Shown here in pieces: positions 42,186 to 62,599 of a stretch of 64,000 nt of DNA. The translations under genes were made by a program, and so were the position numbers. Positions within the stretch are counted from its first letter, which is position 1; every line of letters starts with the position of its first letter. Under the pieces are notes generated by a model. It had not been told where the DNA came from. It did no database searches and saw nothing but the letters and a program-made list of their open reading frames with translations. This DNA comes from Melanopsichium pennsylvanicum (Eukaryota; Basidiomycota; Ustilaginomycetes; Ustilaginales), in contig OAPG01000007.1 of the NCBI GenBank assembly GCA_900208305.1, positions 407,001 to 471,000 of the forward strand, in the 5' to 3' direction.

Positions 42186-42978
42186 TGCGGTAACAAGAGA
42201 TTTGTTGGTTTGAGCCTGTGCTTACCAAGTTGTGATGACGAGGTAGGGATGCTGGAAACAGACAAGAAAGATCATGTTCGTGTTTGGAGACGGTGAAACA
42301 CAGGTAGAACAAAGTTAAAAAAACAGCAAGAGTATGACAAGGAGGACCCTTTAGCCTCGTAAAATAAGAAACATCTCTTTTGTGAATTTATGAAATCTCA
42401 CACTCTCCAACATATGGCCACATCGGAATTTCTCGCGTGATTACAGATGGAACCATTCACATAAAAATTGGTCAAGATGTGCACCTGTGATGCACTTCCT
42501 GGCGCACACCGTTTGAGTCAGTAATAGACCTGCTTTCTGCCACAGGTATATAGCGGGTCTAGCAGTGGCATCAGCATGGTTGACACAGGTTTGTGTGCTC
42601 TTGATTGCGCAATCTGGGTTTTGGCCTGTTCTTGAGGCTTTCTCAACACCACATACCAGCTCATACACAGCCACCAAAGCCAGCCTCAATTGCTGTATCA
42701 GTTGTATTCCAATAGGTGTGAGAATCATCAAGTGGCTTGTGGGAGGATTCAGTCATCACTATCATCAAAGAGGCCCATTTTCTGTCCCATCAATATTGTT
42801 TGTACCCAGATTCTCCTGTCGCACAATCCAAGCAAACAGTCTGTTGTCTATGAGCAAGATGTTGTCAGCATGTGGTAACACACATCCACTTGCCACTCTA
42901 ATCACTTACAAATCAATTCCTTGTACTCTGCTTGTGGCAATGGTGCAGCTGGTGTTGCTGGCAAAGTTCCTTGCATTG
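42186..42978. other. Boundary between gene space and CpG-depleted repeat region
   Basis: From about 42440 the composition changes: CpG becomes rare (about five by eye in over 500 bp) while TG and CA dinucleotides are frequent. No gene is seen. Element 1 is inserted here, and its left target-site copy CATTG is at 42974-42978. The same CpG-poor sequence type resumes after each retrotransposon. Confidence 0.6.
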
Positions 42979-43989
42979 TGTCACGGGAGTGGGTCCCAAG
43001 GAAGAGGTCTGCGCAGACCAGAGATGTTGAATCGGCTGAGATCCGGTGGGAGAGCATGTCTCAACGGATCTCAGGGAGATCTGGTGGATATTGGTGGGCT
43101 CATGGGATTAAAGGTTAGCGCAGGACCGAGAAGTTGAATCGGACGAAATCCGGTGAGAGAGCAGGTCTCAACGGATCTCACGGAAATTTGGCGAGTGGCA
43201 GTGACTCGCCGGATATCGAAGGTATTGATGGCAAGGGGAGCATCTGCGATGGCGGCGACCAACGCCACGCCGGAACGACACGTGGGCCAATCGACGCCCA
43301 GGGGGCAACGGAGAGGGAGCACGCGGGCGTGCTCGGAAGCACCCTGCCGAAGGACTAGGGGGCGGTCTTATCGTGCGGGGGTCCAAGCTCGACGCACGCA
43401 GGTTGTACAGTACCGATGGACCTTGCACACGATACATATATATAAATACTCTGTTCCCCGCTATCGGATGAGCGGAAGCTCATCCACTCTATCTTATATC
43501 TCAGTCACACATAGTTATCAGTACGTCGTACTTACCATACTCTTCACACGTCGCACATCGCAATACCACTTATTGCGATCCATATAGTCTGTGTCCCCGT
43601 CGGTGAACGGAGAACAACGTATAGACGTCGTTGACACCACAATCGACGCTGTAGCACCTCAACTACAGGCGGAACCTCAACCGCGGGCCTGGCACCACAA
43701 CCAGTCCCTCATAACTCCACCGGCAACGACGGCTGAGGTCTAACCCAGCCATCAGCAGTATCCCGTCGACGTCGTGACACTCGCGTCGACCAAATACCCC
43801 GTCCGAGCTTGCCGCGTTACCTCTGTACGGAGTGTCACCAGCGGTCAGCCGATATCCGTCGAGAGATCGCCACTCGCGGGATTCTCTTTGATATCCGTTG
43901 AGGCCAAGCTTAACCGCCGGAATTCACTGAAATCCGGCGAGTCGCGCTTTCTCACGGGAATTCGGATCTCTGGCACGCGACCGCTGACA
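42979..43989 (+). repeat. Element 1 5' LTR
   Basis: 1011 bp, starting TGTCACGGGAG and ending GCTGACA. U3 holds a direct repeat of about 60 bp (from 43023 and 43131, both with GTCTCAACGGATCTCA) and a TATA box TATATATAAAT at 43437-43447. A perfect 8-bp hairpin GGATGAGC-GGAA-GCTCATCC (43466-43485) lies just ahead of the predicted transcript start near 43482, where the sequence complementary to the primer site begins. Confidence 0.97.
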
Positions 43990-43990
43990 T

Positions 43991-44000
43991 TAGAGTGGAT
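43991..44000 (+). promoter_or_regulatory. Element 1 primer-binding site, self-priming type
   Basis: TAGAGTGGAT starts one base after the LTR end and is exactly complementary to ATCCACTCTA at 43482-43491 in the LTR, about 40 bp downstream of the TATA box. This geometry is that of Tf1/sushi elements, whose mRNA 5' end folds back to prime reverse transcription in place of a tRNA. Confidence 0.8.
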
Positions 44001-44029
44001 CGTACAAGCGACGCCCCAAGTTCACCAAG

Positions 44030-45400
44030 ATGGCCGACTCTGCACTACATGACAGACTCGACCGCCTCATCGCCCTCCTTGAGCAGCAGCAGGTAGACAA
44101 TGCCGCACTCAAGGCTCGGCTCGACCAACAGGAGACTCCATCCCCTGGTCAACGAGCCAGGGAGCATGATCTAAGCTCCCCAACCCGTCGAGCCTCGCAG
44201 CAGGCGGATGAGTCCTACCTCGGTGGTCTCGAGACACCCACGCCTGCGACTAGACCACACCCTCGGTCCGTCACCTTCGACATTCTCGACCGACGAGCGT
44301 ACACCGACCAAGAGAAGTACGCTACGCCTACTGGACCTCGGTATGTCAAACCGGTGACCCCGGAGGCATGGACCGGCACTGGCAGTGAACAGGACACTCA
44401 GCCCCACGCTGCCCTCAAGACTCCATTCCCCAAGCTCGACACTCGCAACATCGATATCTTCATTCTCGAGGCTGACGCTTGGTTCAAGGCTAATGGTGTG
44501 TACGACCATACTTTGATGATCCTACACACGGCAGCTCAGCTCAAGGGCACCGCTCGAGAGTGGTGGAAGGGTAAGCTCCGCGTCGACCGGCATCGTCAAG
44601 GGATGCTCTTCCATGATTGGAGCCACTTCACCACTCGACTCAGGGAGCTGTACAATCAGCGCAGCGACAGGGTCGATGCCTACAACAAACTCCTAGCGTT
44701 GAGGCTCATTACCGACACACCAGGAGCAGCAACGCGACATGTCGAGCAATTCCGAGACCTGGCAGCTCAGTGCCACATGGAGGACCCTGAGTTCGTCATC
44801 GACCTCTTCCGAGGGAGCCTTACTCGCTCACTTCAGGAGAAGTTCGAGCGTAACCCACCTGAAGACCAGTGGGCCTGGTACCGGGAGGTCGAGGACATTG
44901 ATTGCCAGCGTATGCGGCATCAGCAGAATGCTGTCCGCTTCGCCCCAACCCCAGCAATCAGGACTGCTCATACCGAACCGGGCATTCCCCAGAGAACTGG
45001 CTCTCGACCGTTGCCCCCTCATCTGGCACAGAAGCTGCCGGTACGGGAAGCACCACCGAGACCTCGCGACGACCAAAGGGTCGTCCCCGGCCCGACGACA
45101 TTTAACAGCGACGCTTGTAGGGTCTGCGGCAAGACCGGGCATTGGCAGCGGAACTGTCCAGACGCCAAGCCAACGGTTTACCCGGCTAGACCATCAGGAC
45201 CACAGATGCGAGCGCACGTGGTGTTGGAGTCGGAGAAACCACAGGACGGCTCACCAGAGGAAGGAGACGGAGCTGAAGACCATCGCAAAGACGATGGCGG
45301 TCTTGAAGACCACTTTGACCCCAACCTCTTCGCCGACGATCACGACGCAGGCGAGCCCTACCACGAGGACGAGGGAAACGACCTTGGAGCGATGCAATGA
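44030..45400 (+). CDS. gag: Element 1 Gag
   Basis: A 456-residue capsid/nucleocapsid protein, starting in a good context (CACCAAGATGG) 40 nt after the LTR. A coiled-coil-prone N-terminus (about residues 5-40) is followed by the retrotransposon Gag capsid domain (about 140-300, with WWKGKL, FTTRLRELYNQ, HVEQFRDLAAQC). A CCHC zinc knuckle CRVCGKTGHWQRNC lies near residue 362. The acidic C-terminus ends at TGA (45398-45400). That stop overlaps an ATG in the pol frame (ATGA) and sits inside the frameshift hairpin. The frame is intact. Confidence 0.95.
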   Translation: MADSALHDRLDRLIALLEQQQVDNAALKARLDQQETPSPGQRAREHDLSSPTRRASQQADESYLGGLETPTPATRPHPRSVTFDILDRRAYTDQEKYATPTGPRYVKPVTPEAWTGTGSEQDTQPHAALKTPFPKLDTRNIDIFILEADAWFKANGVYDHTLMILHTAAQLKGTAREWWKGKLRVDRHRQGMLFHDWSHFTTRLRELYNQRSDRVDAYNKLLALRLITDTPGAATRHVEQFRDLAAQCHMEDPEFVIDLFRGSLTRSLQEKFERNPPEDQWAWYREVEDIDCQRMRHQQNAVRFAPTPAIRTAHTEPGIPQRTGSRPLPPHLAQKLPVREAPPRPRDDQRVVPGPTTFNSDACRVCGKTGHWQRNCPDAKPTVYPARPSGPQMRAHVVLESEKPQDGSPEEGDGAEDHRKDDGGLEDHFDPNLFADDHDAGEPYHEDEGNDLGAMQ

Positions 45401-45419
45401 TGGCATGCATCGCTCTAAG
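45373..45419 (+). promoter_or_regulatory. Element 1 gag-pol -1 ribosomal frameshift signal
   Basis: The slippery heptamer G-GGA-AAC (45373-45379) is in the correct register with gag codons. Three nt later CTTGGAGCGATGCA (45383-45396) pairs with TGCATCGCTCTAAG (45406-45419): 14 base pairs, one of them G-U, around a 9-nt loop. The gag stop and the only candidate pol ATG both lie in that loop. The pol frame is -1 relative to gag and open from 45319. Confidence 0.8.
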
Positions 45420-48400
45420 ACCGCCTTCGCCATCACCTTGTATATGTCAAGATTGTTCATTATGTTTCTCTGCAGCTTCCGGTGCCTCAGTACTCGAGCT
45501 AACAGGTACGGTCAACCACCATCCTGCTAGCATTCTCGCCGACACCGGCGCTGCATTGTCTATAGTTTCAGCTCCGTTTGTTCGCAAGTACTCGATAACC
45601 ACAAAACCCATAAAAAACAGAACCGTACACGGAGTGACCGGACGTTCCCTCACGATCACGAGCGCTGCTGACGTCGACGTAGTCATAGGAGGACAACACC
45701 TAGGGATGCTCAAGGTCGCCGTCGCTGACGCTAGCAACTACGATTTCATCCTGGGGTACGATGAACTACGACGCCTACAGCCAAGGGTCCATTGGGATAC
45801 TGGACAGCTCAATTTTGGAAAACCCAACGAGATCCGGTCAGACGCGGTCGTTCAAGGGATTTCACCGAAATCCGCCGAGACCGGCCGATCTGCCGAATCT
45901 CGAGCAAACTTAGTAGTACATGGCTACGAGTTTGTCGACGCCAACGAGCTCGTTCAGGCGGCACTACAGGATGGCCCCATAGGGGTCATGCTAATCAGCG
46001 CTCCTCCGACGTCGCTCCCGTTGTTTGGCTTTGTCCCCACGGGAGGCGACAAAGGCATAGAGATGGAAACGACACTAGAAGAGCCTCCCACTGCCGTCGA
46101 CATCCCAGCCCCGTACTACCCCCTCAAGGATGTATTCGACAAGGTCGAAGCGGACAAGCTTCCCCCTCACACGAAGCACGACTTGCACATCGAGCTACTA
46201 CCCAGTTTGACGCCACCTCAAGGTCCGCTATATCTCAAGGGCCCTAAGGAGATGGCCGAGCTGAGGAAGTACCTCGAAGAGAACCTCGAGAAAGGATTCA
46301 TTTGGCCCTCAAAGAGCCCGGCGCGATCACCCGTCCTTTTCGTGCCTAAGAAGGACGGCGGCCTGCGACTCTGCGTAGACTACCGCGGTCTCAACGAGGT
46401 CACGGTCAAGAACCGAGCGCCACTGCCTTTAATCGAGGAGCAGCTGTTCCTCCTACGAAAAGCGAAGATCTATACCAAGCTGGACCTAAAGGCAGCTTAC
46501 AACTTGGTTAGGATCGCCGACAGGGACGAATGGAAAACCGCGTTTGGAACTCAACTCGGACTGTATGAGTATCTGGTCATGCCATTCGGATTGGCAAATG
46601 CGCCCGCGCACTTCCAATCGCTCATCAACACCATCTACCGCGACATCATTGGCGTATACGTAGTAGTATACCTGGACGACTTCCTGATCTTCAGCAACAA
46701 TGAGAAGGAACACATCGAGCACGTCAGGACGGTGCTCAGTAGGCTCAAGGTATGGCGGTTATTCGCCAAACTCTCGAAGTGCGTGTTCCATACCGATACT
46801 GTTGAGTTCCTCGGCTACATTATCAAGCCGTCAGGTATCGAGATGGACCCCGACAAGATCAGGACTATCAAGGAATGGCCGATGCCGGAGTCTATACACA
46901 ACATCCAACGCTTCCTCGGGTTCGCCAACTTCTATCGCAGATTCATCTCTCACTTTGCACGTATAGCGAGACCGCTCACTTCCCTTGTTAAGCCCACAGA
47001 GCGATTCAAAAAGTTCGACCTCCCTGACGACGCTCGCGCTGCTTTCCACAAGCTGGTGGAAATGTTCACCACCGCTGGGGTTCTCAAACACTTCGATTAC
47101 CATCGTCCTACCCGGTTGGAAACGGACGCAAGCGACTTCGCTCTTGCTGGAGTACTTAAACAAGAGCACGACGGACGATGGCACCCAATAGCATTCTACT
47201 CGCGCAAGATGGCATCGGCGGAGAAGAACTACGAGATCCATGACAAGGAACTCCTTGCTGTTGTCGTCTGTCTCAACCACTGGCGGCACATGCTTGCAGG
47301 ACTACCTAGTCAGCTCATTATTCTCACTGATCACGAGGCGCTCAAATACTTCAAATCTCAGCGGAAGATCACAGGTCGGCAGGCTCGATGGTCGGTGTTA
47401 CTCGCTGACTTCGACTTCGTACTCCAATACAGACCGGGAGATAAAGCGGGAGAGCCAGATGCGTTGACACGACGAAGTGATATGCAGCCGACCGCAGAAG
47501 AAGACCTACACAACGTCCGACAGCTGTTACCGGCACAAGTATTTGCCGAGGATTTCGAAAACCGCCGAGTGGACTCAACTCGGCGGATTTCACCAAAATT
47601 CGCCAAGAAAGAGCTACTCGCCGAATCTCAAATAAATATGCTAAAGCCAACGATGTCCAATATTGCGGAGGGAGGGCTGGTCCAACTCGTAAAGACTTTC
47701 CAGCCGCTCGATGCCGAGCTTGCGGAGCTTCATCAGAAGCAAACTTTCGAAGTTAGACATGGCCTGTGGTATTGCGACGGTCGGCTAGTGGTACCGCGAG
47801 TCACATTACCAGGTAAGAAAGGTCAACACAACACTCGGAGTGCCGCCGAAGCAAAAGATTGCTCGCTCTCGGTGGAGCACCTGAGGTACATGGTGATGTC
47901 CCAATGCCACGACGGCGCTACCGCTGGCCATGCAGGTCGAGACGCCACCCTCGAGCTCACAAGGCGGCATTATTGGTGGCCGAATATGGCGGCATGGGTT
48001 GCTGACTATGTAGCAACCTGCCCAGTGTGCGCTCGATATAAAGCACCGCGACACCGACCATATGGCCTTTTGCAGCCGCTGTCGACGCCGTCAAGACCCT
48101 GGAATTCCATCTCGATGGATTTCATTGAAGGGTTACCTAAATTGGAGGGGTATGACTCGATCTTCGTAGTGGTCGACCGGTTGACCAAATATGCCATCTT
48201 AACCCCGACGTACAAGACAATAACGTCGGAGCAGACGGCAAAGATGCTCAAAGACCAAGTTATGTCCCGTTTCGGGGTACCGGAGCACATTGTCTCAGAC
48301 TGCGGCCGACAATTCGTCTCGGCGGCATGGAAAGAGTTCACCGACAAGCTGGTCATCCACCACTCGCTCAGCACAGCCTACCACCCACAGACGGACGGGC

Positions 48401-49161
48401 AAACGGAGCGAGTCAATCAAGTTGTCGAGCAGTACCTCTGTATGTACTGCAACTACGAGCAGGACAACTGGGTAACCTGGCTGCCGATGGCCGAGTTCGT
48501 TTACAACAACACGGTCCACAGCAGCATAGGAGTCTCGCCTTTCTTTGCTTGCTACGGGTGGAATCCAAAGTCACACCCCAATCTCCCAGAACAAGTCGGT
48601 GTGCTCGACCCCAAGAGAAAAGAGTTTGCCACCCGAAGACAAGAATTTACGGAGTATCTACAGGAGCAAATCAGGTACGCTCAAAGCCGAACCGTTGAGC
48701 AATATAACCGCAAACGGAAGGACATCGAGTTCAAAGTTGGAGACATGGTCTACGTCAACCGAAAGAACTGGAAGACAGCTCGACCCAGTCCCAAACTCGA
48801 CACAAGGTTAGCAGGCCCGTTCCCCATCCTCGAACGAATCGGCAGAAGAGCATACCGGCTCCAACTCCCAGCAAGTTTGCGCGTACACGACGTTTTCCAT
48901 GTCTTGATGCTCGAGCCTCAAAAGGCGAGCTCACTCCCACAGCGCTCCACACTCAAAGTCATGCCGCCCCTACCGGACGACACTCTAGAATTTGAGGTAG
49001 AGGCTATTGTGGGAAAACGAAAACAGGGTAGGCAAGTGCAGTACAAAGTCCAATGGAGGGGCTACCCCGAGGAGGCAGCCTCGTGGGAACCGACAGACTG
49101 TCTCAACTGCCCAGACCTCATCCGGGAGTATGAGGAATCGGCGGGGGGACGGAGACACTAA
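45379..49161 (+). CDS. pol: Element 1 Pol polyprotein
   Basis: Read by -1 frameshift from gag, or from the ATG at 45397 by reinitiation; from that ATG it has 1254 residues. Domains: aspartic protease (ILADTGAALS, catalytic Asp about 49); reverse transcriptase (VPKKDGGLRLCVDYRGLN, then VVYLDDFLIFS, YLDD about 425-428); RNase H (LETDASDFALAGVL, YEIHDKELLAVV); integrase with an HHCC finger (from about 838, HAGRDAT, CPVCARYK) and a D,D,E core (SMDFIEGLP, VSDCGRQF, HPQTDGQTERVN). The chromodomain is at about 1198-1250 (EFEVEAIVGKRKQGRQVQYK, VQWRGYPEEAASWEP). All catalytic residues are present and there is no stop. The stop codon lies in the first copy of a 31-bp tandem duplication (49148-49178, 49179-49209). 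Confidence 0.95.
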   Translation, partial: RPWSDAMMACIALRPPSPSPCICQDCSLCFSAASGASVLELTGTVNHHPASILADTGAALSIVSAPFVRKYSITTKPIKNRTVHGVTGRSLTITSAADVDVVIGGQHLGMLKVAVADASNYDFILGYDELRRLQPRVHWDTGQLNFGKPNEIRSDAVVQGISPKSAETGRSAESRANLVVHGYEFVDANELVQAALQDGPIGVMLISAPPTSLPLFGFVPTGGDKGIEMETTLEEPPTAVDIPAPYYPLKDVFDKVEADKLPPHTKHDLHIELLPSLTPPQGPLYLKGPKEMAELRKYLEENLEKGFIWPSKSPARSPVLFVPKKDGGLRLCVDYRGLNEVTVKNRAPLPLIEEQLFLLRKAKIYTKLDLKAAYNLVRIADRDEWKTAFGTQLGLYEYLVMPFGLANAPAHFQSLINTIYRDIIGVYVVVYLDDFLIFSNNEKEHIEHVRTVLSRLKVWRLFAKLSKCVFHTDTVEFLGYIIKPSGIEMDPDKIRTIKEWPMPESIHNIQRFLGFANFYRRFISHFARIARPLTSLVKPTERFKKFDLPDDARAAFHKLVEMFTTAGVLKHFDYHRPTRLETDASDFALAGVLKQEHDGRWHPIAFYSRKMASAEKNYEIHDKELLAVVVCLNHWRHMLAGLPSQLIILTDHEALKYFKSQRKITGRQARWSVLLADFDFVLQYRPGDKAGEPDALTRRSDMQPTAEEDLHNVRQLLPAQVFAEDFENRRVDSTRRISPKFAKKELLAESQINMLKPTMSNIAEGGLVQLVKTFQPLDAELAELHQKQTFEVRHGLWYCDGRLVVPRVTLPGKKGQHNTRSAAEAKDCSLSVEHLRYMVMSQCHDGATAGHAGRDATLELTRRHYWWPNMAAWVADYVATCPVCARYKAPRHRPYGLLQPLSTPSRPWNSISMDFIEGLPKLEGYDSIFVVVDRLTKYAILTPTYKTITSEQTAKMLKDQVMSRFGVPEHIVSDCGRQFVSAAWKEFTDKLVIHHSLSTAYHPQTDGQTERVNQVVEQYLCMYCNYEQDNWVTWLPMAEFVYNNTVHSSIGVSPFFACYGWNPKSHPNLPEQVGVLDPKRKEFATRRQEFTEYLQEQIRYAQSRTVEQYNRKRKDIEFKVGDMVYVNRKNWKTARPSPKLDTRLAGPFPILERIGRRAYRLQLPASLRVHDVFHVLMLEPQKASSLPQRSTLKVMPPLPDDTLEFEVEAIVGKRKQGRQVQYKVQWRGYPEEAASWEPTDCLNCPDLIREYEESAGGRRH

Positions 49162-49627
49162 GCTGAAGAGGATCTTGCGACGGAGACACTAAGCTGAAGA
49201 GGATCTTGCGAGCCGCAATGCATGCCATCACAGGAGAGTAAGATGGTGAGAAGCTCGACAAGGACGAAGCTCGACAAGGACGATGTCGAGCGGCAAAGGT
49301 AGAAGGTTGCAGGAATCGAGATCCGGACAATGACCCTGACTCAGGGAATTTCCACGAAATCCGCCGAGTACTGCAGAATTCAACGGATCTCAGAAAAAAT
49401 TAAAAAAAAATCGCGGGGTAACGAGAACCTAAAAGTCACGAAATTCGCCGAGGAATGCATGATCCAAAGGATCTCAGGCCTTAACGGGCGATGCGAGTCG
49501 ACAAGTATATTCCTCAGAGTCGTCGCACCTGTTGCACACCGAAAGTCACACAATCAAGCTCACACTAGGTTCAATGGGTAACAAGGCACTGCCATTGCAA
49601 CAAGTCAACACAGCCAGCGGGCACAGA
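49162..49627. other. Element 1 spacer between pol and the antisense gene
   Basis: Non-coding on both strands as far as I can tell. It starts with the second half of the 31-bp tandem duplication and includes two copies of the element's dispersed motif (GAAATCCGCCGAG at 49356-49368, GAAATTCGCCGAG at 49440-49452). It is the convergent 3' end of sense pol and the antisense gene. Confidence 0.6.
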
Positions 49628-49915
49628 CTACTCCGCAGACTCGGGGGCTAACGAAGGCCCAGGTACCGAAGGAGGCTCGATATCCTCGAAGGGCGAGCGC
49701 ATGGACCGCAGTCGCCGCTGACGATCGAAGTATTCCTCGATCGTCGTCAGTACCGGGACGCGCCGACCGCGAGGCGAGGCAGACCAAATGATACGCATCG
49801 CGTACGCCCAGTTCGGGTCTGCCACACCATCCGAGTCACGGTCGAGGCCACGTACCTCTCCCAACCCTCGACCCCCCGCTCCCGTGACGTGAGCTCGCTC
49901 GACGCCACGCTCACC

Positions 49916-50774
49916 TCAATGCAGATGGCTAGGAGGGGCGTCGCCAGCGTATACCATCGTTGGCAACGCCCTCTCGGTTCGCACGCACTTCTTGTGGCCG
50001 CCCAGATGGCAATGCACACAAGCGCGCAGAGTTCGGCCCTTGCCACCGGCAGAAAGCACGTCAGCGAAGGCTGACGGGAAACAACTGGGACGAAACAAAA
50101 AAAGGGAAGAACCAGAGTCAGCAGTGAGTATCGAACGTTGAAGGGGGCAGTGGTACTTACGGTATACCAAGCTTGGCGCAGCGGGCGCATTGCCAGCTCG
50201 GCCAAGGCATGCAGCCTTCGGTTAGCCAAAGGAGAACCAGACAATGCAGTCGACCGGCCGTCACGGAACCCTCCGATACCACCCAAGTGGGGGGCCAGGC
50301 CTCGCACGCCACGAACACCAGCAACACCGGAGCGATAAGCGACTCCGCCCACAGCGCAACCTCGAGGTAGTTGGGCACATGAGGCCCAACGAGCGGAGCG
50401 ACAGGTTCCTCCCCGACCTTGCTAATCCTCCCTACAACCGACTCCTCCACCTCCATCGCCTCCAGCCGCTCTTCCTCCTCCTCCGCAACATCGTTTCCCA
50501 AAAACAGCGGTTCCAGTGGCCGCGGCGTCGACCGCAACGCGACGAGCTGCTTGGCAGCCACAATTTCGATGGGCTGCTTGCCAGCAGCAGGGGACGACGA
50601 AGCTGTGGCCTCGAGGCCGACAGCCGAAGGTGTTGTCACTGCCCAAGTGGCAGGATTTCGGTTGCAAAGCCTGGCGCTACGGCGCACAGGCTCTTCTGCC
50701 CTGAGGGCAGGCAGTCGTGTCGACGCTGGCCGCGATGACGCAGCGGAAGGGGCATTATTCGAGTGGTTCGACAT
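49916..50774 (-). CDS. Element 1 antisense spliced gene, paired-Cys-cluster protein
   Basis: Encoded opposite to gag-pol, between pol and the 3' LTR. Exon 1 is 50774-50161 and exon 2 begins at 50084, with a 76-bp phase-2 intron (GTAAGT ... TCCCAG). Splicing joins CARCAKLGIP to C and so creates Cx2Cx6C, followed 20 residues later by CVHCHLGGHKKC (Cx2Cx7C), a plausible two-zinc or Zn-cluster module. The product is 260 residues to a TGA at 49918-49916. After it the same frame stays open to 49628 (95 more residues, ending with FDRQRRLRSMRSPFEDIEPP), so the TGA is probably a mutated CGA. A TATA-like box (TTAAATAG on the minus strand, 50834-50842) lies about 60 bp upstream. The N-terminus is basic and Ser/Pro-rich, then acidic, then hydrophobic. 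No family is recognised; a nucleic-acid-binding or regulatory role is inference. Confidence 0.72.
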
Positions 50775-50863
50775 CTTGACGGTTTAGAAGGTGCTGTTGG
50801 TGGAAGAACAAGTCGGGGGAACACCCGCCGACCCTATTTAAGCCTCAACGGAGCTCGGCTCTT

Positions 50864-50876
50864 GAAGGGGGGGTAG
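50864..50876 (+). promoter_or_regulatory. Element 1 polypurine tract
   Basis: GAAGGGGGGGTAG lies immediately upstream of the 3' LTR, at the position used to prime plus-strand DNA synthesis. Confidence 0.85.
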
Positions 50877-51887
50877 TGTCACGGGAGTGGGTCCCAAGGA
50901 AGAGGTCTGCGCAGACCAGAGATGTTGAATCGGCTGAGATCCGGTGGGAGAGCATGTCTCAACGGATCTCAGGGAGATCTGGTGGATATTGGTGGGCTCA
51001 TGGGATTAAAGGTTAGCGCAGGACCGAGAAGTTGAATCGGACGAAATCCGGTGAGAGAGCAGGTCTCAACGGATCTCACGGAAATTTGGCGAGTGGCAGT
51101 GACTCGCCGGATATCGAAGGTATTGATGGCAAGGGGAGCATCTGCGATGGCGGCGACCAACGCCACGCCGGAACGACACGTGGGCCAATCGACGCCCAGG
51201 GGGCAACGGAGAGGGAGCACGCGGGCGTGCTCGGAAGCACCCTGCCGAAGGACTAGGGGGCGGTCTTATCGTGCGGGGGTCCAAGCTCGACGCACGCAGG
51301 TTGTACAGTACCGATGGACCTTGCACACGATACATATATATAAATACTCTGTTCCCCGCTATCGGATGAGCGGAAGCTCATCCACTCTATCTTATATCTC
51401 AGTCACACATAGTTATCAGTACGTCGTACTTACCATACTCTTCACACGTCGCACATCGCAATACCACTTATTGCAATCCATATAGTCTGTGTCCCCGTCG
51501 GTGAACGGAGAACAACGTATAGACGTCGTTGACACCACAATCGACGCTGTAGCACCTCAACTACAGGCGGAACCTCAACCGCGGGCCTGGCACCACAACC
51601 AGTCCCTCATAACTCCACCGGCAACGACGGCTGAGGTCTAACCCAGCCATCAGCAGTATCCCGTCGACGTCGTGACACTCGCGTCGACCAAATACCCCGT
51701 CCGAGCTTGCCGCGTTACCTCTGTACGGAGTGTCACCAGCGGTCAGCCGATATCCGTCGAGAGATTGCCACTCGCAGGATTCTCTTCAATATCCGTTGAG
51801 GCCAAGCTTAACCGCCGGAATTCACTGAAATCCGGCAAGTCGCGCTTTCTCACGGGAATTTGGATCTCTGGCACGCGACCGCTGACA
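50877..51887 (+). repeat. Element 1 3' LTR
   Basis: 1011 bp, colinear with the 5' LTR without indels. Mismatches occur at 51475, 51766, 51776, 51787, 51788, 51837 and 51861 (5' LTR 43577, 43868, 43878, 43889, 43890, 43939, 43963). All are transitions at CpG sites and six fit TCG to TTG on one strand or the other. Confidence 0.97.
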
Positions 51888-51892
51888 CATTG

Positions 51893-52915
51893 TTGCTGTT
51901 GGCCTTGGGGAAGCTAGCCTGAACTACATTTTGGATTGTTTGTAGTTGTGGTATTGCCATCTACAAGGTGGGATCATCTTGTACCCTTGTGTAGTGGCAG
52001 AGAATTGCAGAAAGTAACACTGTTTGAAATTGTTGGCTGGCATGGTGACAGAACATACAACCAGAGGTGGATTGCAATGGGGATGGTGATGTTTGAAAAA
52101 GAGTTGAATTGCAAGCAAGCTAACATACATGCCAAACAAGCTTGCCAAAACTCTCAAAGTCTTGATGGATGGCTTCCTCAATCAAGACGCCACTATGCAA
52201 TGCACATTCATCAATTGGTTTTACAAGCCTTGCTTTTGCAAACATTGTTTGGGATGTGCATCATGGTTGTGTGCTTGATGACTCACTCTCATAAGGGGTG
52301 AAGAACAGCATCAGGGATGCTCAAGGATGGTGTCAAGGAAGATGGTATGCAAACAATGCTCATTTACAACACCATCAAGTTGGACTGGTGTCAGATGACG
52401 CTCAGATGACACATGCAAGAGCATCATTTGGGCATTGTATACGCACATGGCAACAAATTTCAATGTGATTGGCTCAGCCATTGACAATGAATCAAGATTT
52501 TCAGACCATTGAACAAGCAACAGTGATGGTATAGCTATGGTAAGCTCACTCAGCACTCAGCCATTGCAGTCCTGCCCTTGGTGTACTGGCAATTCTAACA
52601 CTTTGCCATGTTTGCAATTGTGCTGAGAAACTTTAAGTAAACTCAGGCTCTGTGGCATTAGTTGTCCAGATTGATTGAAGCTTTACAAGACACTGACAAT
52701 GTGCCTGCCTTTGCCCTTTGAATTACAGAAACCGCTTAGGTGCCTGTGTCCATGGATCCTTGCATTGCCACAGGCTCTTCAAGGCCCATCAAAGATGACT
52801 CAACATTCTCTTGCACGCAAGGGTAGGAGGTGGAGGATTAATTTAGTAATCACAGTTGTTGGTTCATGGATTCAGATGTTTGATGGTCTTCTAGCCATCT
52901 TTTGTGGTAGCTTAC
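51893..52915. other. CpG-depleted, TG/CA-rich DNA between elements 1 and 3
   Basis: About 1 kb with only about five CpG by eye but abundant TTG, CAA, TGCA and CATTG words. Reading frames are short and carry no recognisable motif. I take it for old repeat DNA degraded by CpG-directed mutation. The left target copy CTTAC of element 3 is at 52911-52915. Confidence 0.55.
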
Positions 52916-53345
52916 TGTTAAGGCTGTAGGGTCTAGATACTGCGGGCGGCTACAGCCGGGATGGAGGCTACGGGTACGGAGAGGTCGTAGGCGGGGCGAC
53001 ACAGGCGGTCGGGGGTCAGAGCACACTACTGCGTTGCTATAGAGCTAACTAAGTAATACATGCGACGAGGTCCGGAGGCAACCTCATGTCAGGCGGGGGC
53101 GGGGTGGTAAGGTACAGGAACTATCGGTCACTTCCCACCGCGGCGTTACAATGTTAGGTTGCCGACGGTCGTATCCTACGTACGGAGGGGCCAGCCGCGG
53201 TTGGGCGGTAGGAGGATCGTGTCAGGCCGACCGCTCCGCTGCGAGGGGTCCGGAGAGGGTCGGTCGGGGCCCGATCACGACGATCGCTCAATCGGGAGGG
53301 GGGCCGAGCACCCCCTCTTTGGACTCCGGTTGGTAGGCACTAACA
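52916..53345 (-). repeat. Element 3 3' LTR (complete)
   Basis: 430 bp, reverse complement of the element 2 LTR, running TGTTAAGG...CACTAACA on the plus strand. It is followed at 53346-53359 by the reverse complement of the polypurine tract. Confidence 0.95.
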
Positions 53346-53646
53346 TTACCCCCCGGTTCAGGCCGACTGGTCCCCAGGCGGCTGATAGGACAGGAGGGCA
53401 AGGGGGGTCGTACTCCCCCAACCTTAATCCGCGCCAGGGACGCCTCTCTGTACAAGTCGCGACGCTCGTCTCGGCAATTTAATTGCGGATGCGCAGCAAT
53501 GAGGCAATACCACCCACAATGCCTTGGACCGGCGGAATTGACTGTGCGCCATTGCTCGTGCGTAGCTATCGAGGGGGGATATAAGGATTGGGGTCGACGG
53601 GTCTTCCTTCTCGATTTCCCCCATTCTTCCCCATTCCCTTTTTGCA

Positions 53647-53774
53647 ATGTCGTCGTCACCAGCAGACGCTATCATGGATTCCCCGGCCGACAACCCGTCG
53701 GCCGACATCAGTACCGTTCCCCCACCATCGCCTACGTCCGCGACGGCGGCAGCGTCGGCAGCAGCAGCAGCAGC

Positions 53775-53812
<38 letters not shown>

Positions 53813-54853
53813 CCGCTTCTGGAGGTGAGTCGGTCGTGGTTCCGTCGTGGTTCGGTTGTGGATGGGGGGCCCAGAGGGTCTGACAACCACCTGTCGGTGC
53901 CGTGGAATGGGTTACTGACATTTGTTCCCTCCCCCTTGTTTCGATTACGACAGATCGGCCGTCGGAGACCTCCGCTGGTCCCATCCGGAGGGTGCGCTGC
54001 TCCCCGCGTGCTCACCTTTCCCGGGGGGCCAACTCGGGCCGCCACGAGCACGCCGTGCGTCAACAGTCTGCCGATCCGTCGGTCAATCCTTCCTCCACCA
54101 CTTCCCTCGTCCTGGCGCCCCGGAATTCGATGCCGTGGTCGCGTCCTTCGGTTCCCATCGAGATCACTCCGGAACTTGTTGGTGATGGTAAGTATTTGTT
54201 CCATTGCTGTGTTGATTGGGATCGCTACTGACGTTTGTGTTTCCGTCGCCGCTGCAACAGATCTTGCCCCGCTATGGGGCGAGACGTGGGGCGATTGCTA
54301 CGCCTGCGTATGCGCCGGCGTTGCCTGTGAGCGGGCGGGAGGCAATCTCCGCTGCCGTCGGTGTCAGGGGCAGCACGGGCAACCCTGCGACGCGGATATG
54401 CGCGGTAAGTATTTCCGTCGGGCGTCTGTTGCGATGTATTGGGTGGTCGGCTGACTCTTGTTCTTCCTTTTGTTTTCCCCGACAGTCCCCCCACTTGGCG
54501 GCGCCCAAGGTCCCCTCCGAATGAGGGTTTACGCGTGCTTGCTTGAGAGGTGGAGGTCCGGGGGGGTCGGTTGGCGTTGCCGCCCCCACCCCAACGTCAG
54601 GTTGTTGCTGAGGACACTTGGCAAGATCCCGGAGGAGGAGGAGGAATTGAGGGAGGAGGTGGCTCGGGTGGGCGCGGTGGGTCGGGAGCGGGAGGCGGCT
54701 CGCAAGCGAGCTAGGTCCCGCCCCGACCGTCCAGCCAAGGCTGCCCAAGAGCGGCGCCGCACTTGGGCGCGGGCCCAAGGCCAGCCGGGGGAGTCCGCTA
54801 GAGGCCTTGCGTGTCGCCGACGCTTACCAAGCATTTGTAGGTTGGTAAGGTAG
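53647..54853 (+). CDS. Element 3 antisense gene, truncated C-terminus
   Basis: Relative to its element this gene is antisense, so it reads on the plus strand. Exons: 53647-53824, 53954-54187, 54261-54404 and 54486-54853. The three introns (129, 73 and 81 bp) have intact GT...AG ends (GTGAGT/GACAG, GTAAGT/AACAG, GTAAGT/GACAG). The frame stays open across all junctions for 307 residues. Exon 1 has a Thr run from an ACA microsatellite. Exon 3 carries CYACVCAGVAC and CRRCQGQHGQPC, a Cx2Cx6C / Cx2Cx7C pair separated by 8 residues. Exon 4 begins a Glu-rich then Arg-rich likely coiled coil and runs across the internal deletion into out-of-frame gag-pol DNA, so the last 20 or so residues are not native. 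A GATATAAG box (53578-53585) lies about 65 bp upstream. Confidence 0.7.
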
Positions 54854-55056
54854 GGTGTCGATGGATCCGGAGAACGGATCCCTCTTGCTCCACGACGGGA
54901 GTGTCGGTCCGGTGGGCTGCCCAGAATGCTGCGGCGAGCACCCGGAGCTGGCTTAGGTTGTCGATGGGTTCGGACCGAAGGAACCCATCGACCCTTAGTT
55001 TCCCTCCGGGGGATCCTCCGAATCCGATAGGTCACTGTCGGGGTTGGAGGCTGAGT
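54804..55056 (-). pseudogene. Element 3 gag-pol junction remnant
   Basis: Reverse complement of element 2 57038-57290: the end of gag, the GGGAAAC heptamer (54998-55004) and its hairpin (54960-54992, here 12 bp), and the start of the protease region. It is bounded by two deletion junctions. Confidence 0.9.
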
Positions 55057-55273
55057 CACTTCCCACCGCGGCGTTACAATGTTAGGTTGCCGACGGTTGT
55101 ATTCTACGTACGGAGGGGCCAGCCGCGGTTGGGCGGTAGGAGAATCGTGTCAGGCCGACCGCTCCGCTGCGAGGGGTCCGGAGAGGGTCGGTCGGGGCCC
55201 GATCACAACGATCGCTCAATCGGGAGGGGGGCCAAGCACCCCCTCTTTGGGCTCCGGTTGGTAGGCACTAACA
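55057..55273 (-). repeat. Element 3 5' LTR (truncated)
   Basis: 217 bp with the outer U3 half of the LTR, in reverse orientation and ending TAACA before the target copy CTTAC. The R/U5 half is deleted. Compared with the same part of its 3' LTR it shows several TCG to TTG or CGA to CAA changes. Confidence 0.93.
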
Positions 55274-55392
55274 CTTACTGACCTCATTTTGCTTCTTTGC
55301 CCCATCTTATTGAGCTTCAATGCAATCATCATACATACTTTTGCTTGGCATGCATCTGTGCAGCCCAAGCTCATCATCACAAACTGGCCTTG
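55274..55392. other. Short CpG-free spacer between elements 3 and 2
   Basis: 119 bp of non-element DNA including the target copies CTTAC (55274-55278) and CCTTG (55388-55392). It separates two LTRs in head-to-head inverted orientation. Confidence 0.85.
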
Positions 55393-55822
55393 TGTTAGTG
55401 CCTACCAACCGGAGTCCAAAGAGGGGGTGCTTGGCCCCCCTCCCGATTGAGCGATCGTCGTGATCGGGCCCCGACCGACCCTCTCCGGACCCCTCGCAGC
55501 GGAGCGGTCGGCCTGACACGATCCTCCTACCGCCCAACCGCGGCTGGCCCCTCCGTACGTAGGATACGACCGTCGGCAACCTAACATTGTAACGCCGCGG
55601 TGGGAAGTGACCGATAGTTCCTGTACCTTACCACCCCGCCCCCGCCTGACATGAGGTTGCCTCCGGACCTCGTCGCATGTATTACTTAGTTAGCTCTATA
55701 GCAACGCAGTAGTGTGCTCTGACCCCCGACCGCCTGTGTCGCCCCGCCTACGACCTCTCCGTACCCGTAGCCTCCATCCCGGCTGTAGCCGCCCGCGGTA
55801 TCTAGACCCTACAGCCTTAACA
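55393..55822 (+). repeat. Element 2 5' LTR
   Basis: 430 bp, TGTTAGTGCC...CCTTAACA. It differs from the 3' LTR at 55432 (T versus C), 55509 (C versus T) and 55598 (C versus T). The predicted transcript start is near 55672, where the sequence complementary to the primer site begins. Confidence 0.97.
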
Positions 55823-55823
55823 T

Positions 55824-55833
55824 TACATGCGAC
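55824..55833 (+). promoter_or_regulatory. Element 2 primer-binding site, self-priming type
   Basis: TACATGCGAC begins one base after the LTR and is exactly complementary to GTCGCATGTA at 55672-55681. Length (10 nt) and offset (one base) are identical to element 1 although the sequences are unrelated. Confidence 0.8.
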
Positions 55834-55861
55834 CTCCCCACGGGACGACGTCGTAACCAAG

Positions 55862-57097
55862 ATGAGTACACGCTCCAACCGACGAAACCAAACGGACGCC
55901 TCCCCCCAAGCGGAGGGAGACGCTCCCACCATCTCCCCCAGCGGAGACGAGCCCGCCAGCGTCGTTGCACCCTCGGGCGAACCGCCCGCCGCCCTGACCA
56001 CCTTGGTCCAAGGGCAAGTGGATATCCTGGCGCTTCTGCGTGAAACCTCTGAACAACAGCGGCGCATTACCGCTCTGCTAGAGGCCGCCTTCTTCCCCAG
56101 GGAGGATCAACCTAGACCGGAGTCTTCCCAGCACTACCAAGGAGCAACCGCTGCCCAGGTCCCCCCGCCAACCGTAGCCCCCGTCTACGTGGAGGCCGCG
56201 CCCCGCGAGCCAGAGATTTGACTCCAGGCTCCGGAATGGGACGGCAGCCAAGACAAACTGGAGGACTTCTTGGATCAATGCGAACTCAACTTCGAGGCTA
56301 ATCCCTCCAAGTTTCCAACGGATGCCCGTCGCATCATGTTTGCCATCGGCAACATGACGGGCAAACCACAAACCCGCATTCGCAATGTGCGACAACAGGA
56401 GGGGGAGGATCCGCCCTGGATGAGCTCCTGGAGGGCCTTTTGCGCCGACCTCCGTCGCGTCCATGGCGATCCCGACCCCAGCTACACCGCACGCCTCCAA
56501 CTGAATGCCCTCCGCCAGAAGGGATCAGTATCGGAGCACGCGGCGGAGTTCATGTCGCTGACGGCCAAATCGCACCTGACAGACCAGCAGCAGGCGTTGA
56601 TGCTGTTTGAACAAAGCCTCCGGCCGCGCCTACGGGAAAAGCTCACCCACGTGCCGATGACCGACATCCGTGACTTCATCAACGCCGCCATTGTCACGGA
56701 GCACCGGATGCAGGTGATACAGGAGGCCACGACAAGACCCGCGGAGTCACAGCTGCGACACCGACCGCCCCTCCCAGCCGTGACGGCCAAACGAGAGCCC
56801 CCGGAGGGACCCCGCAAAATGGAACGACCTCCACTACCGGCCAAGGACCCTACGCGTGATGCGGCGGAACGCCTCCGCCAGCACCGACGGACCAACGGGC
56901 AGTGCTTCGGCTGCGGTGGCAGCGACCATTTGGCCCGTGACTGCCCGAAGGCGCCCCAAACACAAAATCTCCGGGCACATGCTATTTCATTCGACAACGA
57001 TTCCGGGACTATACTCGTCAACCCCATGGATGACGGGTCAGCCTCCAACCCCGACAGTGACCTATCGGATTCGGAGGATCCCCCGGAGGGAAACTAA
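55862..57097 (+). pseudogene. gag: Element 2 gag, interrupted by one TGA
   Basis: The frame begins 39 nt after the LTR (AACCAAGATGAG) and is continuous to TAA at 57095-57097, apart from a TGA at 56219-56221. That codon sits in ATT-TGA-CTC and is most simply a CGA changed by TCG to TTG. The N-terminal part is acidic and Ser/Pro-rich with a short likely coiled coil (residues about 40-80). The capsid domain follows (LEDFLDQCELNF, YTARLQLNALRQKGSVSEHA, AEFMSL, FEQSLRPRLREKL). A CCHC knuckle CFGCGGSDHLARDC lies near residue 351. Without the stop it would encode 411 residues. Confidence 0.9.
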
Positions 57098-57132
57098 GGG
57101 TCGATGGGTTCCTTCGGTCCAAACCCATCGAC
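57088..57132 (+). promoter_or_regulatory. Element 2 gag-pol -1 ribosomal frameshift signal
   Basis: G-GGA-AAC (57088-57094) ends directly at the gag stop TAA. After 5 nt GTCGATGGGTT (57100-57110) pairs perfectly with AACCCATCGAC (57122-57132); the loop contains C-TTCG-G. TCGGTCC in the loop can also pair with GGACCGA at 57182-57188, a possible pseudoknot. The -1 frame is open straight into pol, and pol has no nearby ATG. Confidence 0.83.
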
Positions 57133-60100
57133 AACCTAAGCCAGCTCCGGGTGCTCGCCGCAGCATTCTGGGCAGCCCACCGGACCGACACTCCCGTCGT
57201 GGAGCAAGAGGGATCCGTTCTCCGGATCCATCGACACCCTACCTTACCAACCTACAAATGCTTGGTAAGCGTCGGCGACACGCAAGGCCTTGCCTTGCTC
57301 GATACCGGCGCCACCGCCTCTTTCATTACTCCCGAAATGGTCGCAACGGCCAACATTCCTACCCACTCCCTCCGTAAATCCGTCCACGCCACATTCCTCC
57401 AGGGCATGTCGGCCGCCATCAGTCGCCACGCGGCGGTGGATATCATCATCAACAACCACTGCATCACCTCACGCCACCGACTCTTCATCACCCCCATGAC
57501 CTCCCACGACGTGCTGTTGGGGATGGATTGGATCGAGGCCGCCAGGCCGGAGCCAAACTATACCCTCCGTACGTGGGACCTCCGGGTCCCCCACACCGTC
57601 ACGGTGCCCTCCAACCCCAAAATCGAAAAGAACGAACTCCACAACTTGGTCGGCCGGCGACAGCTGGTCTCCACTGAGGAGGACCTGCTGGTCCTCCCAG
57701 AACCGGAAGAGGAGCTACTGCCCCTCCGAGCTTCCGCGACCGACCTCGCCGTCCTACCGCCAGAGTACCGCGAGTACGCCGACGTCTTCGACGCCGAGAG
57801 GGCCGACCAATTGCCTCCCCACCACCCACACAACCACGAGATCAACCTGGAGGCTGGCAAAACCCCTCCCTATGGCGCACTCTACTCCCTGTCGCACCGC
57901 AAACAAGAGGAGCTCCGGAACTACCTCCAGAAGATGCAGGCCATTGGCTTCATCCGACCGTCGAGTAGCCAAGCTGCCGCGCCCCTCCTTTTTGTACCAA
58001 AGAAGGACGGTCGCCTCCGGCCGTGTGTGGACTACCGCGCCCTCAACGCCATCACCGTCAAGGATTGCTACCCGATCCCCCTCATCTCCGAACACCTTGA
58101 TCGGCTGGCGACGGCCAAGATCTTCACTAAATTTGACCTGAAGGGTGCCTACAACCTTCTCCGGATCGCCCCCGGCCACGAATGGAAGACCGCATTCCGC
58201 ACGCGCTACGGCAGCTACGAATACCTCGTCATGCCGTTCGGCCTCTGCAACGCTCCGGCGACCTTCCAACGGCTCATGAACCACGTGCTGTCGGATCTCT
58301 TAGACGTGTCCGTCATCGTATATCTGGACGACATCCTAGTCTTCTCCGACAACGAGGCCGACCACCACCACCACGTCTGCCAAGTGTTGGATCGATTACG
58401 GAAGCATCAGCTGTATTGCGCTCCAGACAAATGCAAATTCCACACCGACTCCGTCGAGTTCCTCGGCTACCTCGTCAGTCCCGACGGCCTCTCCATGGAC
58501 CCGACCAAGGTTAGTACAGTCTTGGAGTGGCCGCCACCACAGTCGATCCGACAGATCCAAGTCTTCCTCGGATTTGCCAACTTCTACCGTCGCTTCATCC
58601 GCCACTATTCTCGTGTAGCGGCCCCCCTCACCGACCTCCTGAAAGGAGGAGCCTCCGGAAAGGTAGATCTGCCCCCGGAAGCAACAGCAGCCTTCAACCG
58701 GCTGAAAGAAGCGTTCACCTCTGCCCCTATCCTCCGGCACTTCTCTCCAACGCTCTACACCGTCGTCGAAACAGACGCGAGCGATGCTGTGGTAGCCGCC
58801 GTGCTGTCGCAGTGGCACCCACAGCCGGGCGCCGACGCGAGCGCCGAGCCCAACAGCCGCTCGCATACCCTCCATCCTGTGGCATACTGGTCGCGAAAGA
58901 TGATCCCGGCGGAGCGTAACTACGAAATCCACGACAAGGAACTCCTGGCTATCGTAGACGCCTGCGGCGCTTGGAGACACTACCTCCATGGCCTCACCTG
59001 ACCGTTCCTCATTTACACCGACCACCAGGCGCTCCAGTATTTTCAGACGAAGCGACAACTCAACCGTCGCCAAGCCCGCTGGCAAGCCGACCTGGCTGAG
59101 TTCGACTTCGTCCTCCACTACCGTCCGGGTAAGGAGGCCGTCCGCCCCGACGCTCTGAGTCGCCGGCACGACTTGTTCCCCAACGGACCGTCGCGCCCAG
59201 ACCCCGCCAACCAAGCCACTCTCCTCCCTGCAAACTTGTTTGCAAGGGCAGCCGGCGTACACTCCTCGGACCCCCTGCCTACGGAGTGGATCGAAACCCT
59301 CCGGAAAGCGGCCAACCTCCCCCCAAACGTTGCCCTCCGCGATGGTGTCCCGTACACCACAGAGGGTCACGTCTACCTGCCACCCCAATTACGGGACAAG
59401 GCACTCCACCTACTGCACGACCACCCTACGGCGGGACATCCTGGCCGCAAGACAACCCTCCATCTCCTCCGTCAACGTTTTTACTGGCCAACCATGGTGC
59501 AGGACACCGACAGCTATGTCGCCTCTTGCGCGGCCTGTCGAAGGGCAAAACACCCCCGTCACAAACCCCACGGCTACCTTCTCCCGTCGGTCCCTCCCGA
59601 TCGGCCGTGGTCCACTATTACCATGGACCACATCACTGACCTCCCGCCCTCCCTTGCCAACGGCACCACCTACAACTCCATTCTCGTAGTCGTCGACCGC
59701 CTCACCAAGTTTGTGGTCTTCATTCCTGCAAACAAAACCGATACGGCGGAGACTTTGGCGTACCAGCTCCACCGCTACGTCTTTTCATACTTTGGCCTCC
59801 CGGACACCATTGTATCTGACCGAGGAACCACGTTTGTAGCTTCCGTTTGGACGGAACTCCTCCGGGCCCTCCGGATTAAAGGGTCTTACTCGTCGGCCTA
59901 CCACCCTCAGACGAATGGCCAGACCGAGCGAGCCAACCAGACCCTGGAGTTGTTCCTCCGCTTCTATACGGCCTACGACCACAGCAACTGGGCAACCCTC
60001 CTCCCGACAGCCCAGCTCGCGCTGAACCAAAGACCGTCGGCGACAACAACCATCGCCCCGGCTATGGCTTGCTTCACATTTGCACCTCGGGCACACCCCT

Positions 60101-60840: not shown

Positions 60841-62296
60841 CTAGTCCCTCAGGAAGCCCTCCAACCACGCCCAGACCACGTCCACCTGCTGTCGCGTGTT
60901 CTGCGACAGTTGCTGGATCTCGCTGATCCGGCGGAGCTCTCGCTTGCCGCCGGTCCTCAGCGACTCTGTCAGCAACAGCGCAGCCACGTCGGCCAGCCCC
61001 TGTTGAAATAACTCAGTCCCCTCCTGCACCCCGTGGAAGAGGGACTCGGCACGCCTTACGGCCGCACCCAGGTCCCCCAGGCCCGTAGCGGACTCCCCCG
61101 GCTGGCCTTGGGCCCGCGCCCAAGTGCGGCGCCGCTCTCGGGCAGCCTCGGCTGGACGGTCGGGGCGAGACCTAGCTCGCTTGCGAGCCGCCTCCCGCTC
61201 CCGACCCACCGCGCCCACCCGAGCCACCTCCTCCCTCAGTTCCTCCTCCTCCTCCGGGATCTCGCCAAGTGTCCTCAGCGACAACCTGACGTTGGGGTGG
61301 GGGCGGCGACGCCGACCGACCCCCCCGGACCTCCACCTCTCAAGCAAGCACGCGTAAACCCTCATTCGGAGGGGACCTTGGGCGCCGCCAAGTGGTGGGA
61401 CTGTCGAGGAAAACAAAAGGAGGAACAAGAGTCAGCCGACCACCCAGGACATCACGACAGACGCCCGACGGAAATACTTACCGCGCATATCCGCGTCGCA
61501 GGGTTGCCCGTGCTGCCCCTGACACCGACGGCAGCGGAGATCGCCTCCCGCCCGCTCACAGGCAACGCCGGCGCATACGCAGCCGTAGCAATTGCCCCAC
61601 GTCTCGGCCCATAGCGGGGCAAGGTCTGTCGTATCGGCCACGGAAACACAAACGTCAGTAGCGATCCCAATCAACACAGCAATGGAACAAATCCTTACCA
61701 TCACCAACGAGTTCCGGAGTGATCTCGATGGGAACCGAAGGACGCGACCACGGCATCAAATTCCGGGGCGCCAGGACAAGGGAGGTGTTGGTCGATGCAG
61801 AGGAAGGAATGGCCGACGGATCGGCAGACTGTTGACGCACGGCGCGCTCGCGACGGCCCGAGTTGGCCCCCCGGGAAAGGTGAGCACGCGGGGAACGGCG
61901 CACCCCCCGGATGGGACCAGCGGAGGTCTCCGACGGCCGATCTGTCGTAATCGAAACAAGGGGGAGGGAACAAATGTCAGTAACCCATTCCACGGCACCG
62001 ACCGGTGGTTGTCAGACCCTCTGGGCCCCCCATCCACAACCGAATCACGACGGAACCACGATCGACTCATCCCCGGAAGCGGGTAACGTTGTTGTTGTTG
62101 TTGGTGCTGTTGTTGTTGTTGCTGCTGCTGCTGTTGCCGACGCTGCCGCTGTCGCGGACGTAGGCGATGGAGGGGGAACGGTACTGACACCGGCCGACGG
62201 GTTGTCGGCCGGGGAGTCCATGGAAGCGTCTGCTGGTGACGACAACATTGCAAAAAAAAGACACTCCATGGAAGCGTCTGCTGGTGACGACGACAT
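60841..62296 (-). CDS. Element 2 antisense four-exon gene, paired-Cys-cluster protein
   Basis: Located between pol and the 3' LTR on the opposite strand. By comparison with element 3, exons are 62296-62071, 61941-61699, 61625-61482 and 61400-60841, in total 391 codons. Introns 2 (GTAAGG...CGACAG) and 3 (GTAAGT...GACAG) look normal. The first donor reads AT where element 3 has GT (position 62070), so this copy may be mis-spliced. Exon 1 contains a tandem duplication of about 50 bp that repeats the start codon region, and an Ala/Thr run. Exon 3 carries CYGCVCAGVAC and CRRCQGQHGQPC (Cx2Cx6C, 8 residues, Cx2Cx7C). Exon 4 is a long likely coiled coil (EEEEELREEVARVGAV...) ending VWAWLEGFLRD. A TATATAAG-like box (minus strand, 62360-62367) lies about 65 bp upstream. 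The C-terminal half has no known family. Confidence 0.7.
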
Positions 62297-62585
62297 TGCG
62301 AAGAAAAAGAATGGGGAAGAATGGGGAAAATCGAGAAGGAAGACCCGTCGACCCCCATCCTTATATCCCTCCTTGATAGCTACGCACGAGCAATGGCGCA
62401 CAGTCAATTCCGCCGGTCCAAGGCATTGTGGGTGGTATTGCCTCATTGCTGCGCATCCGCGATTAAATTGCCGAGACGAGCGTCGCAACTTGTACAGAGA
62501 GGCGCCCCTGGCGCGGATTAAGGTTGAGGGAGTACGACCCCCCTCGCCCTCCTGTCCTATCAGCCGCCTGGGGACCAGTCGGCCT

Positions 62586-62599
62586 GAACCGGGGGGTAA
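62586..62599 (+). promoter_or_regulatory. Element 2 polypurine tract
   Basis: GAACCGGGGGGTAA directly abuts the 3' LTR, the expected plus-strand primer site. Its ending GGGGGGTAA resembles GGGGGGGTAG of element 1. Confidence 0.85.

Follow-up and report, generated by a model that had tools for sequence, protein, structure and literature searches.

The stretch analyzed here (the window, 64,000 nt of contig OAPG01000007.1, assembly GCA_900208305.1) comes from the smut fungus Melanopsichium pennsylvanicum and holds, at 42979-51887, a Ty3-type chromovirus with long terminal repeats (LTRs), which carries an additional gene between pol and the 3' LTR on the strand opposite to gag-pol, the aORF-3R placement. 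An earlier note on the sequence had proposed a spliced antisense gene at this place, and its ATG, splice donor and splice acceptor proved exact to the nucleotide (Table 1; splice junction 50161/50084). The other end that it gave, 49628, is the gene end only in copies without an earlier stop, because the frame of the window copy stops after 260 codons. An env-like gene was rejected as a candidate, since such a gene is expected downstream of pol in the sense orientation and the gene here is antisense.

A search of the 21.1 Mb genome assembly gave 41 matches to the antisense gene, of which 30 were fetched as loci and examined, the other 11 being without a fetched locus. In these copies, which belong to the element family called A below, the ATG is present in 30/30, the donor GT in 29/30 and the acceptor CAG in 30/30, and the TATA-like box that had been noticed about 60 bp upstream of the ATG, TTAAATAG, is identical in all 30 aligned copies. 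Exon 1 is 614, 605 or 593 nt long, so that the differences are multiples of three, and the length of the intron varies freely from 70 to 93 nt. Removal of the intron completes a paired cysteine cluster, C-x2-C-x6-C-x20-C-x2-C-x7-C, as had been predicted; all six cysteines are found in 29 of the 30 copies, one of which (L016) has a stop within the cluster, and a complete frame of 349-356 codons is found in 16. The antisense gene is thus a real intron-containing gene, more than a chance frame, and from its conserved sequence we infer that it has its own promoter and is spliced.

The host element is a chromovirus by its Pfam domains, which follow the order reverse transcriptase (RT), RNase H and integrase with a C-terminal chromodomain (E 2.9e-15). 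Its two LTRs have 7 differences across 1012 aligned positions, and a purine-rich stretch that adjoins the 3' LTR is probably the polypurine tract. A perfect 31-bp tandem repeat of 2.1 copies (49148-49211) overlaps the end of pol.

Table 1 Features of the chromovirus and its antisense gene, in window coordinates
Feature	Position	Strand	Remarks
Exon 1, 614 nt	50161..50774	-	ATG at 50774; dN/dS 0.32 in the spliced frame
Phase-2 intron, 76 nt, GTAAGT..CAG	50085..50160	-	donor from 50160; acceptor CAG ends at 50085
Exon 2 (full-frame copies)	49628..50084	-	stop 49630-49628; dN/dS 0.22
Premature in-frame stop of window copy	49916..49918	-	closes the frame
TATA-like box TTAAATAG	50834..50841	-	putative promoter element
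Paired cysteine cluster	49985..50189	-	interrupted by the intron, completed on splicing
Raised-diversity island, family A	49370..50820		takes in the antisense gene and some of its 3' flank (27 copies)
5' LTR	42979..43989	+	TG..CA ends
gag reading frame	43994..45400	+	open frame; Pfam Retrotrans_gag and CCHC zinc knuckle
pol reading frame, 1280 aa	45319..49161	+	protease, RT, RNase H, integrase, chromodomain (Pfam)
Purine-rich stretch GAAGGGGGGGTAG	50864..50876	+	probable polypurine tract
3' LTR	50877..51887	+	TG..CA ends
Target duplication CATTG, 5 bp	42974-42978 and 51888-51892		before the 5' LTR and after the 3' LTR

Selection on the antisense frame

The earlier note had named the ratio of nonsynonymous to synonymous rates (dN/dS) as a test able to refute the gene, and the test found purifying selection. 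For these and the diversity counts L023 was omitted throughout, and L009 and L022 where their pol end was missing or partial. Pairwise dN/dS in the spliced frame is 0.28 (29 copies; the values of the two exons are in Table 1), while the other ten exon frames give 0.33-1.79, and the spliced antisense frame has the lowest dN and the highest dS in both exons. By region, the ratio falls from 0.58 at the N-terminus to 0.11 in the cysteine cluster, the most constrained part of the protein.

The family-A copies decay by CpG transitions: half of the single-copy variants in the gene (50/100 in L001-L030) are C-to-T or G-to-A changes at CpG, and CpG makes up 232 of the 1068 sites. With a mutation spectrum that allows for this decay, the ratio of nonsynonymous to synonymous variants (N/S) relative to expectation is 0.51 for the gene (29 copies) and 0.62 for the pol end (27 copies). 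By the same measure one sense-strand frame scores 0.60 and the other four frames 1.20-1.76; that sense-strand frame has a pairwise dN/dS of 0.45 in exon 1 and 0.33 in exon 2, and these low values arise from third positions that it has in common with the spliced frame. The antisense gene is therefore under purifying selection, conserved like other element proteins.

Distribution and relatives of the gene

A search with the RT gave 129 candidates, of which 100 were scored, and the family counts rest on these: family A has 96-100% protein identity (35 full-length loci, from which three partial matches of 94-96% were excluded) and family B 85-86% (22 loci), and there are also shorter matches at 79-83% and a family D at 56-58%. 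The antisense gene lies downstream of 34 of the 35 family-A RT loci (32 within 4.5 kb and two at 10-12 kb, with one locus lacking it), and at all 34 it stands on the opposite strand, never on the same one. The two genes at 10-12 kb were probably split from their RT by nested insertions.

In family B the gene has its phase-2 intron, of 71 nt, at the same position. Three copies were examined, of which L036 encodes 439 aa, L034 encodes 325 aa, and L035 gave no result with the anchor used; the 439-aa protein is 32-34% identical to four family-A proteins. At least 20 family B matches span the junction without the ~1.36 kb that holds the gene and at least six carry it (the two states are seen at L033 near 3250 and at L034 3265-4624). 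Because the gene-less copies are the more numerous, the gene is not required in cis. L035 and L036 share a deletion that removes much of pol and retain the gene, and a third copy, on contig C4, is similar by its RT match.

In family D, too, an antisense gene stands between pol and the 3' LTR, with a TATA-like GATATAAGG, four exons, three phase-1 introns and a product of 390 aa, this structure being found in five of six distinct fetched loci (L055 failed the start anchor). Its third exon holds C-x2-C-x6-C-x8-C-x2-C-x7-C. Among 41 family D pol matches, from which one match of 71% was excluded, 36 have the gene directly downstream, on the opposite strand in 36/36, and the other five are partial pol matches. 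A profile comparison did not find a common origin of the A/B and D cysteine domains (probability 0.3%), which is a weak test as the D alignment consists of two near-identical rows; since this comparison finds no homology, we treat family D as alike in architecture only. The second LTR element of the window is a family D copy whose pol ends at 60657 and whose antisense gene region lies at 60841-62340 on the minus strand, between pol and the 3' LTR, with an open frame at 61432-61755 that encodes the family D cysteine motif; the first donor site of the other family D copies was not found in it. Large inverted repeats at 52913-57290 and 61079-63029, with arms up to 726 nt that are 94-100% complementary, come from part of a family D element that is nested here in inverted orientation; a copy of its antisense gene lies near 53546-54807.

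The profile search that had been suggested for the protein found smut homologues and no domain or fold. A single-sequence search returned at least 36 proteins and a profile search at least 88. Among the matches listed, the named relatives come from Melanopsichium and Ustilago (U. hordei, U. nuda, U. tritici, U. bromivora and two Ustilago sp.), a few are without a name, and fragments are numerous among the weaker ones; a search that started from the family B protein found six matches, all in smuts. The Ustilago rows share 33-42% identity with the first family-A row, and 11 rows across genera have in common an unchanging P-W-P-x-W-x-C-x2-C block, together with three of the remaining four cysteines of the cluster. 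P0034-P0036 terminate exactly at the intron position, and P0025 runs on across it; the intron position is common to the Ustilago homologues and family B. The Ustilago homologues, compared here as proteins, would presumably also be located in elements. Some Ustilago models that match the family carry the names 'related to Mig1 protein' or 'related to monocarboxylate permease' (P0060; P0048, P0062 and P0063 by name only). P0060 shares 59% identity with P0025 over 239 columns, and at least its name is therefore probably a wrong transfer.

The arrangement of the cysteines resembles the fungal Zn(II)2Cys6 cluster (Gal4 type) in its two C-x2-C-x6/7-C halves. The spacing of that cluster is C-x2-C-x6-C-x(5-12)-C-x2-C-x(6-8)-C, and the linker is longer than this in family A (20 residues) and in family B (18); the family D linker of 8 falls within the range, but there too no Pfam match was found. 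No curated domain model, Zn(II)2Cys6 or other, was matched by 16 family members searched at E up to 1, nor by one protein each of families B and D, for which the limit was E 5. The antisense protein would probably bind zinc through its paired cysteines.

A diversity island around the gene

Although most copies retain the gene, its sequence varies far more than that of the surrounding parts. In a profile of 3.7 kb (100-nt windows, 27 family-A copies), the mean pairwise difference is 0.06-0.14 in the gene, 0.04-0.06 in the near 3' flank and 0.01-0.04 in pol and the LTR, and the island takes in the intron as well. For the same 27 copies, dS is 0.198 and dN 0.055 in the gene, compared with 0.057 and 0.017 at the pol end, and the two dS values are weakly correlated (r 0.15). 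Beyond the profile, gag and RT were compared by identity lists; of 32 full-length gag matches (the window copy itself counted), 31 have 98-100% identity to the window copy and one has 96%. At 4% single linkage the 27 copies fall into 13 gene classes. In the pairs L014/L030 and L021/L029, near-identity within the gene alternates with 8-19% difference, which marks mosaic breakpoints. Recombination is general and not confined to the gene, because pol and LTR trees reject each other too; the special feature of the gene is old diversity, not recombination.

A CpG mutation hot spot was rejected as the cause of the island, since transversions are also raised (0.021-0.022 in the exons, compared with 0.003 in pol and 0.004 in the LTR), and since some pairs of copies have nearly the same pol but very different genes, while in others it is the genes that agree and pol that differs. 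In family D there is a weaker sign of this kind: 12 of 36 loci have a gene identity of at most 95% with pol at 97-99%, and one divergent copy that was inspected shows a patchy rise (gene 0.007-0.093, pol 0-0.033).

Possible roles of the antisense protein

Retention of the gene in most copies together with its exceptional variety suggests that the element regulates itself. In the reading we favor, at roughly even confidence, the antisense protein is a trans-acting accessory regulator of the element, with self-limitation as the likeliest form, because the gene is unneeded in cis and has many old alleles in an otherwise uniform element. In this scheme, the intron would not be spliced out of the genomic RNA and would survive retrotransposition, presumably because the gene runs against that RNA; the antisense mRNA could be spliced and translated; the probable zinc-cluster protein would act in trans on expression or transposition of the element; and self-limitation would amount to copy-number control by a factor that works best on its own type. 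The pattern of diversity and the loss of the gene in family B fit self-regulation without proving it.

Several observations weigh against regulation by the protein. First, the cysteine cluster is nearly invariant between alleles, so recognition of an allele-specific target would fall to the rest of the protein. Second, the frame is truncated in 14/30 copies. Third, variants present in exactly two copies have an N/S of 2.67, above neutral expectation, perhaps from decay after insertion. Fourth, the trees of gene and flank reject each other, but so do those of pol and LTR, in an approximately unbiased (AU) test with fewer replicates than advised. Fifth, domain and fold searches with the antisense protein gave no match. 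Sixth, expression may be rare, because 27 of 904 LTR elements of U. hordei were expressed in the two conditions described in the source text. At last, the loss of the gene in family B fits a dispensable or a helper role equally well.

Such a helper is the alternative that survives best, although we consider it unlikely: a positive accessory factor would assist nuclear entry, integration or counter-silencing, and gene-less copies would borrow the protein. The presence of the gene at 34/35 family-A RT loci under purifying selection agrees with this, as do the two verified pol-deleted family B copies that retain it, and one review (PMC7264820) compares proteins of this antisense class with the accessory factors of retroviruses. 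However, gene-less family B copies exceed those with the gene, and a helper role alone leaves the many old alleles unexplained. There is also a bolder form of self-regulation, which we regard as improbable, rather more so than the helper. Here the gene would be a polymorphic immunity module: an allele would hold back, in trans, the elements of its own type, which would let rare alleles spread; template switching would carry alleles from one otherwise uniform element to another, and gene-less lineages would escape. If true, smut chromoviruses would carry an allele-specific superinfection control on the strand opposite to gag-pol.

Less probable still is that the antisense RNA is the active product, pairing with the genomic RNA and feeding RNA interference (RNAi), so that diversity would be an escape from silencing by other copies. 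In favor of this, the island also spans the intron and part of the 3' flank, and the genome has Argonaute (one match) and RNA-dependent RNA polymerase (four matches at three loci); among smuts, U. maydis lost RNAi and U. hordei retained it, according to the part of a review that covers them. A role of the RNA alone, however, has no need for a kept frame, six cysteines, a dN/dS of 0.11 in the cluster or amino-acid conservation across genera. We have little faith in a passive history, in which an old passenger gene appears as an island through recent sweeps of gag-pol-LTR and exchange with older relatives, with no selection on its diversity. General recombination, seen in the conflict of pol and LTR trees, and the continuation of family B after losing the gene are in keeping with it, but purifying selection on the gene is similar to that on the pol end, and the raised diversity drops off on either side of the gene. 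A chance open frame or a sense-strand gene has a negligible chance of being correct, since against the one sense frame with lowered N/S stand the lowest dN and highest dS of the spliced antisense frame in both exons, and splice sites, cysteines and homologues that agree with that frame only.

Regulation by an antisense product has a parallel in human T-cell leukaemia virus type 1 (HTLV-1), whose HBZ is a spliced bZIP protein. HBZ is likewise an antisense retroelement gene with a nuclear regulatory product, according to the accounts consulted in part; it differs in being transcribed from the 3' LTR, and the likeness is one of arrangement, without sequence comparison. For self-limitation, the nearest model is the copy-number control of Ty1, in which a divergent gag module governs restriction according to the available text of PMC7055915. 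The diversity, recombination and gene loss described above resemble that system. Like our proposal, Ty1 p22 involves restriction in trans by a factor that the element itself encodes, a module that diverges, and recombination among elements that are otherwise alike, as far as that text describes them; it is, however, a sense Gag fragment of a Ty1/copia element and not a relative of the antisense protein.

The earlier note had called an antisense gene in this position unusual, which was half right, as such genes have been described in plant elements and in Boty of Botrytis. In Botrytis cinerea, Boty-like chromodomain retrotransposons carry the antisense gene brtn (Zhao et al. 2011, as reported in citing texts), placed between pol and the 3' LTR in the excerpted PMC7264820; the likeness is that of a fungal chromodomain gag-pol element with an extra antisense gene, and the difference that Boty is an ascomycete element, compared here by description only. 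No Botrytis or brtn-named protein was among the matches listed in homology searches with the antisense proteins. The plant antisense accessory open reading frames listed in the same excerpts include gene23 of Grande (maize), which has its own promoter and a nuclear product, and those of RIRE2, Retand and PvRetro13; their proteins have SMC or TRP28 domains or none, and these partial descriptions mention neither a paired cysteine cluster nor a conserved intron. Further background is found, in the portions available, in PMC9603552, PMC11963269, PMC8365987, PMC5987419, PMC4227169, PMC3248453 and PMC7763443. Search listings of an open-access library showed no earlier description of an antisense gene of this sort in smuts, none in which a conserved intron accompanies a paired cysteine cluster, and none that forms a diversity island. 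Antisense accessory genes are thus already known, and the location in smuts, the intron with the cluster and the diversity island appear to be new.

The function of antisense accessory genes in LTR retrotransposons is called unknown in the review (PMC7264820, as excerpted), and M. pennsylvanicum offers natural comparisons within one genome: more than 30 family-A copies that carry the gene, with the 13 gene classes among 27 of them, a sister family B with and without it, and a distant family D with an analogous three-intron gene. The gene also provides an example of intron persistence in a retroelement, in which the antisense orientation would hide the intron from the splicing of genomic RNA.
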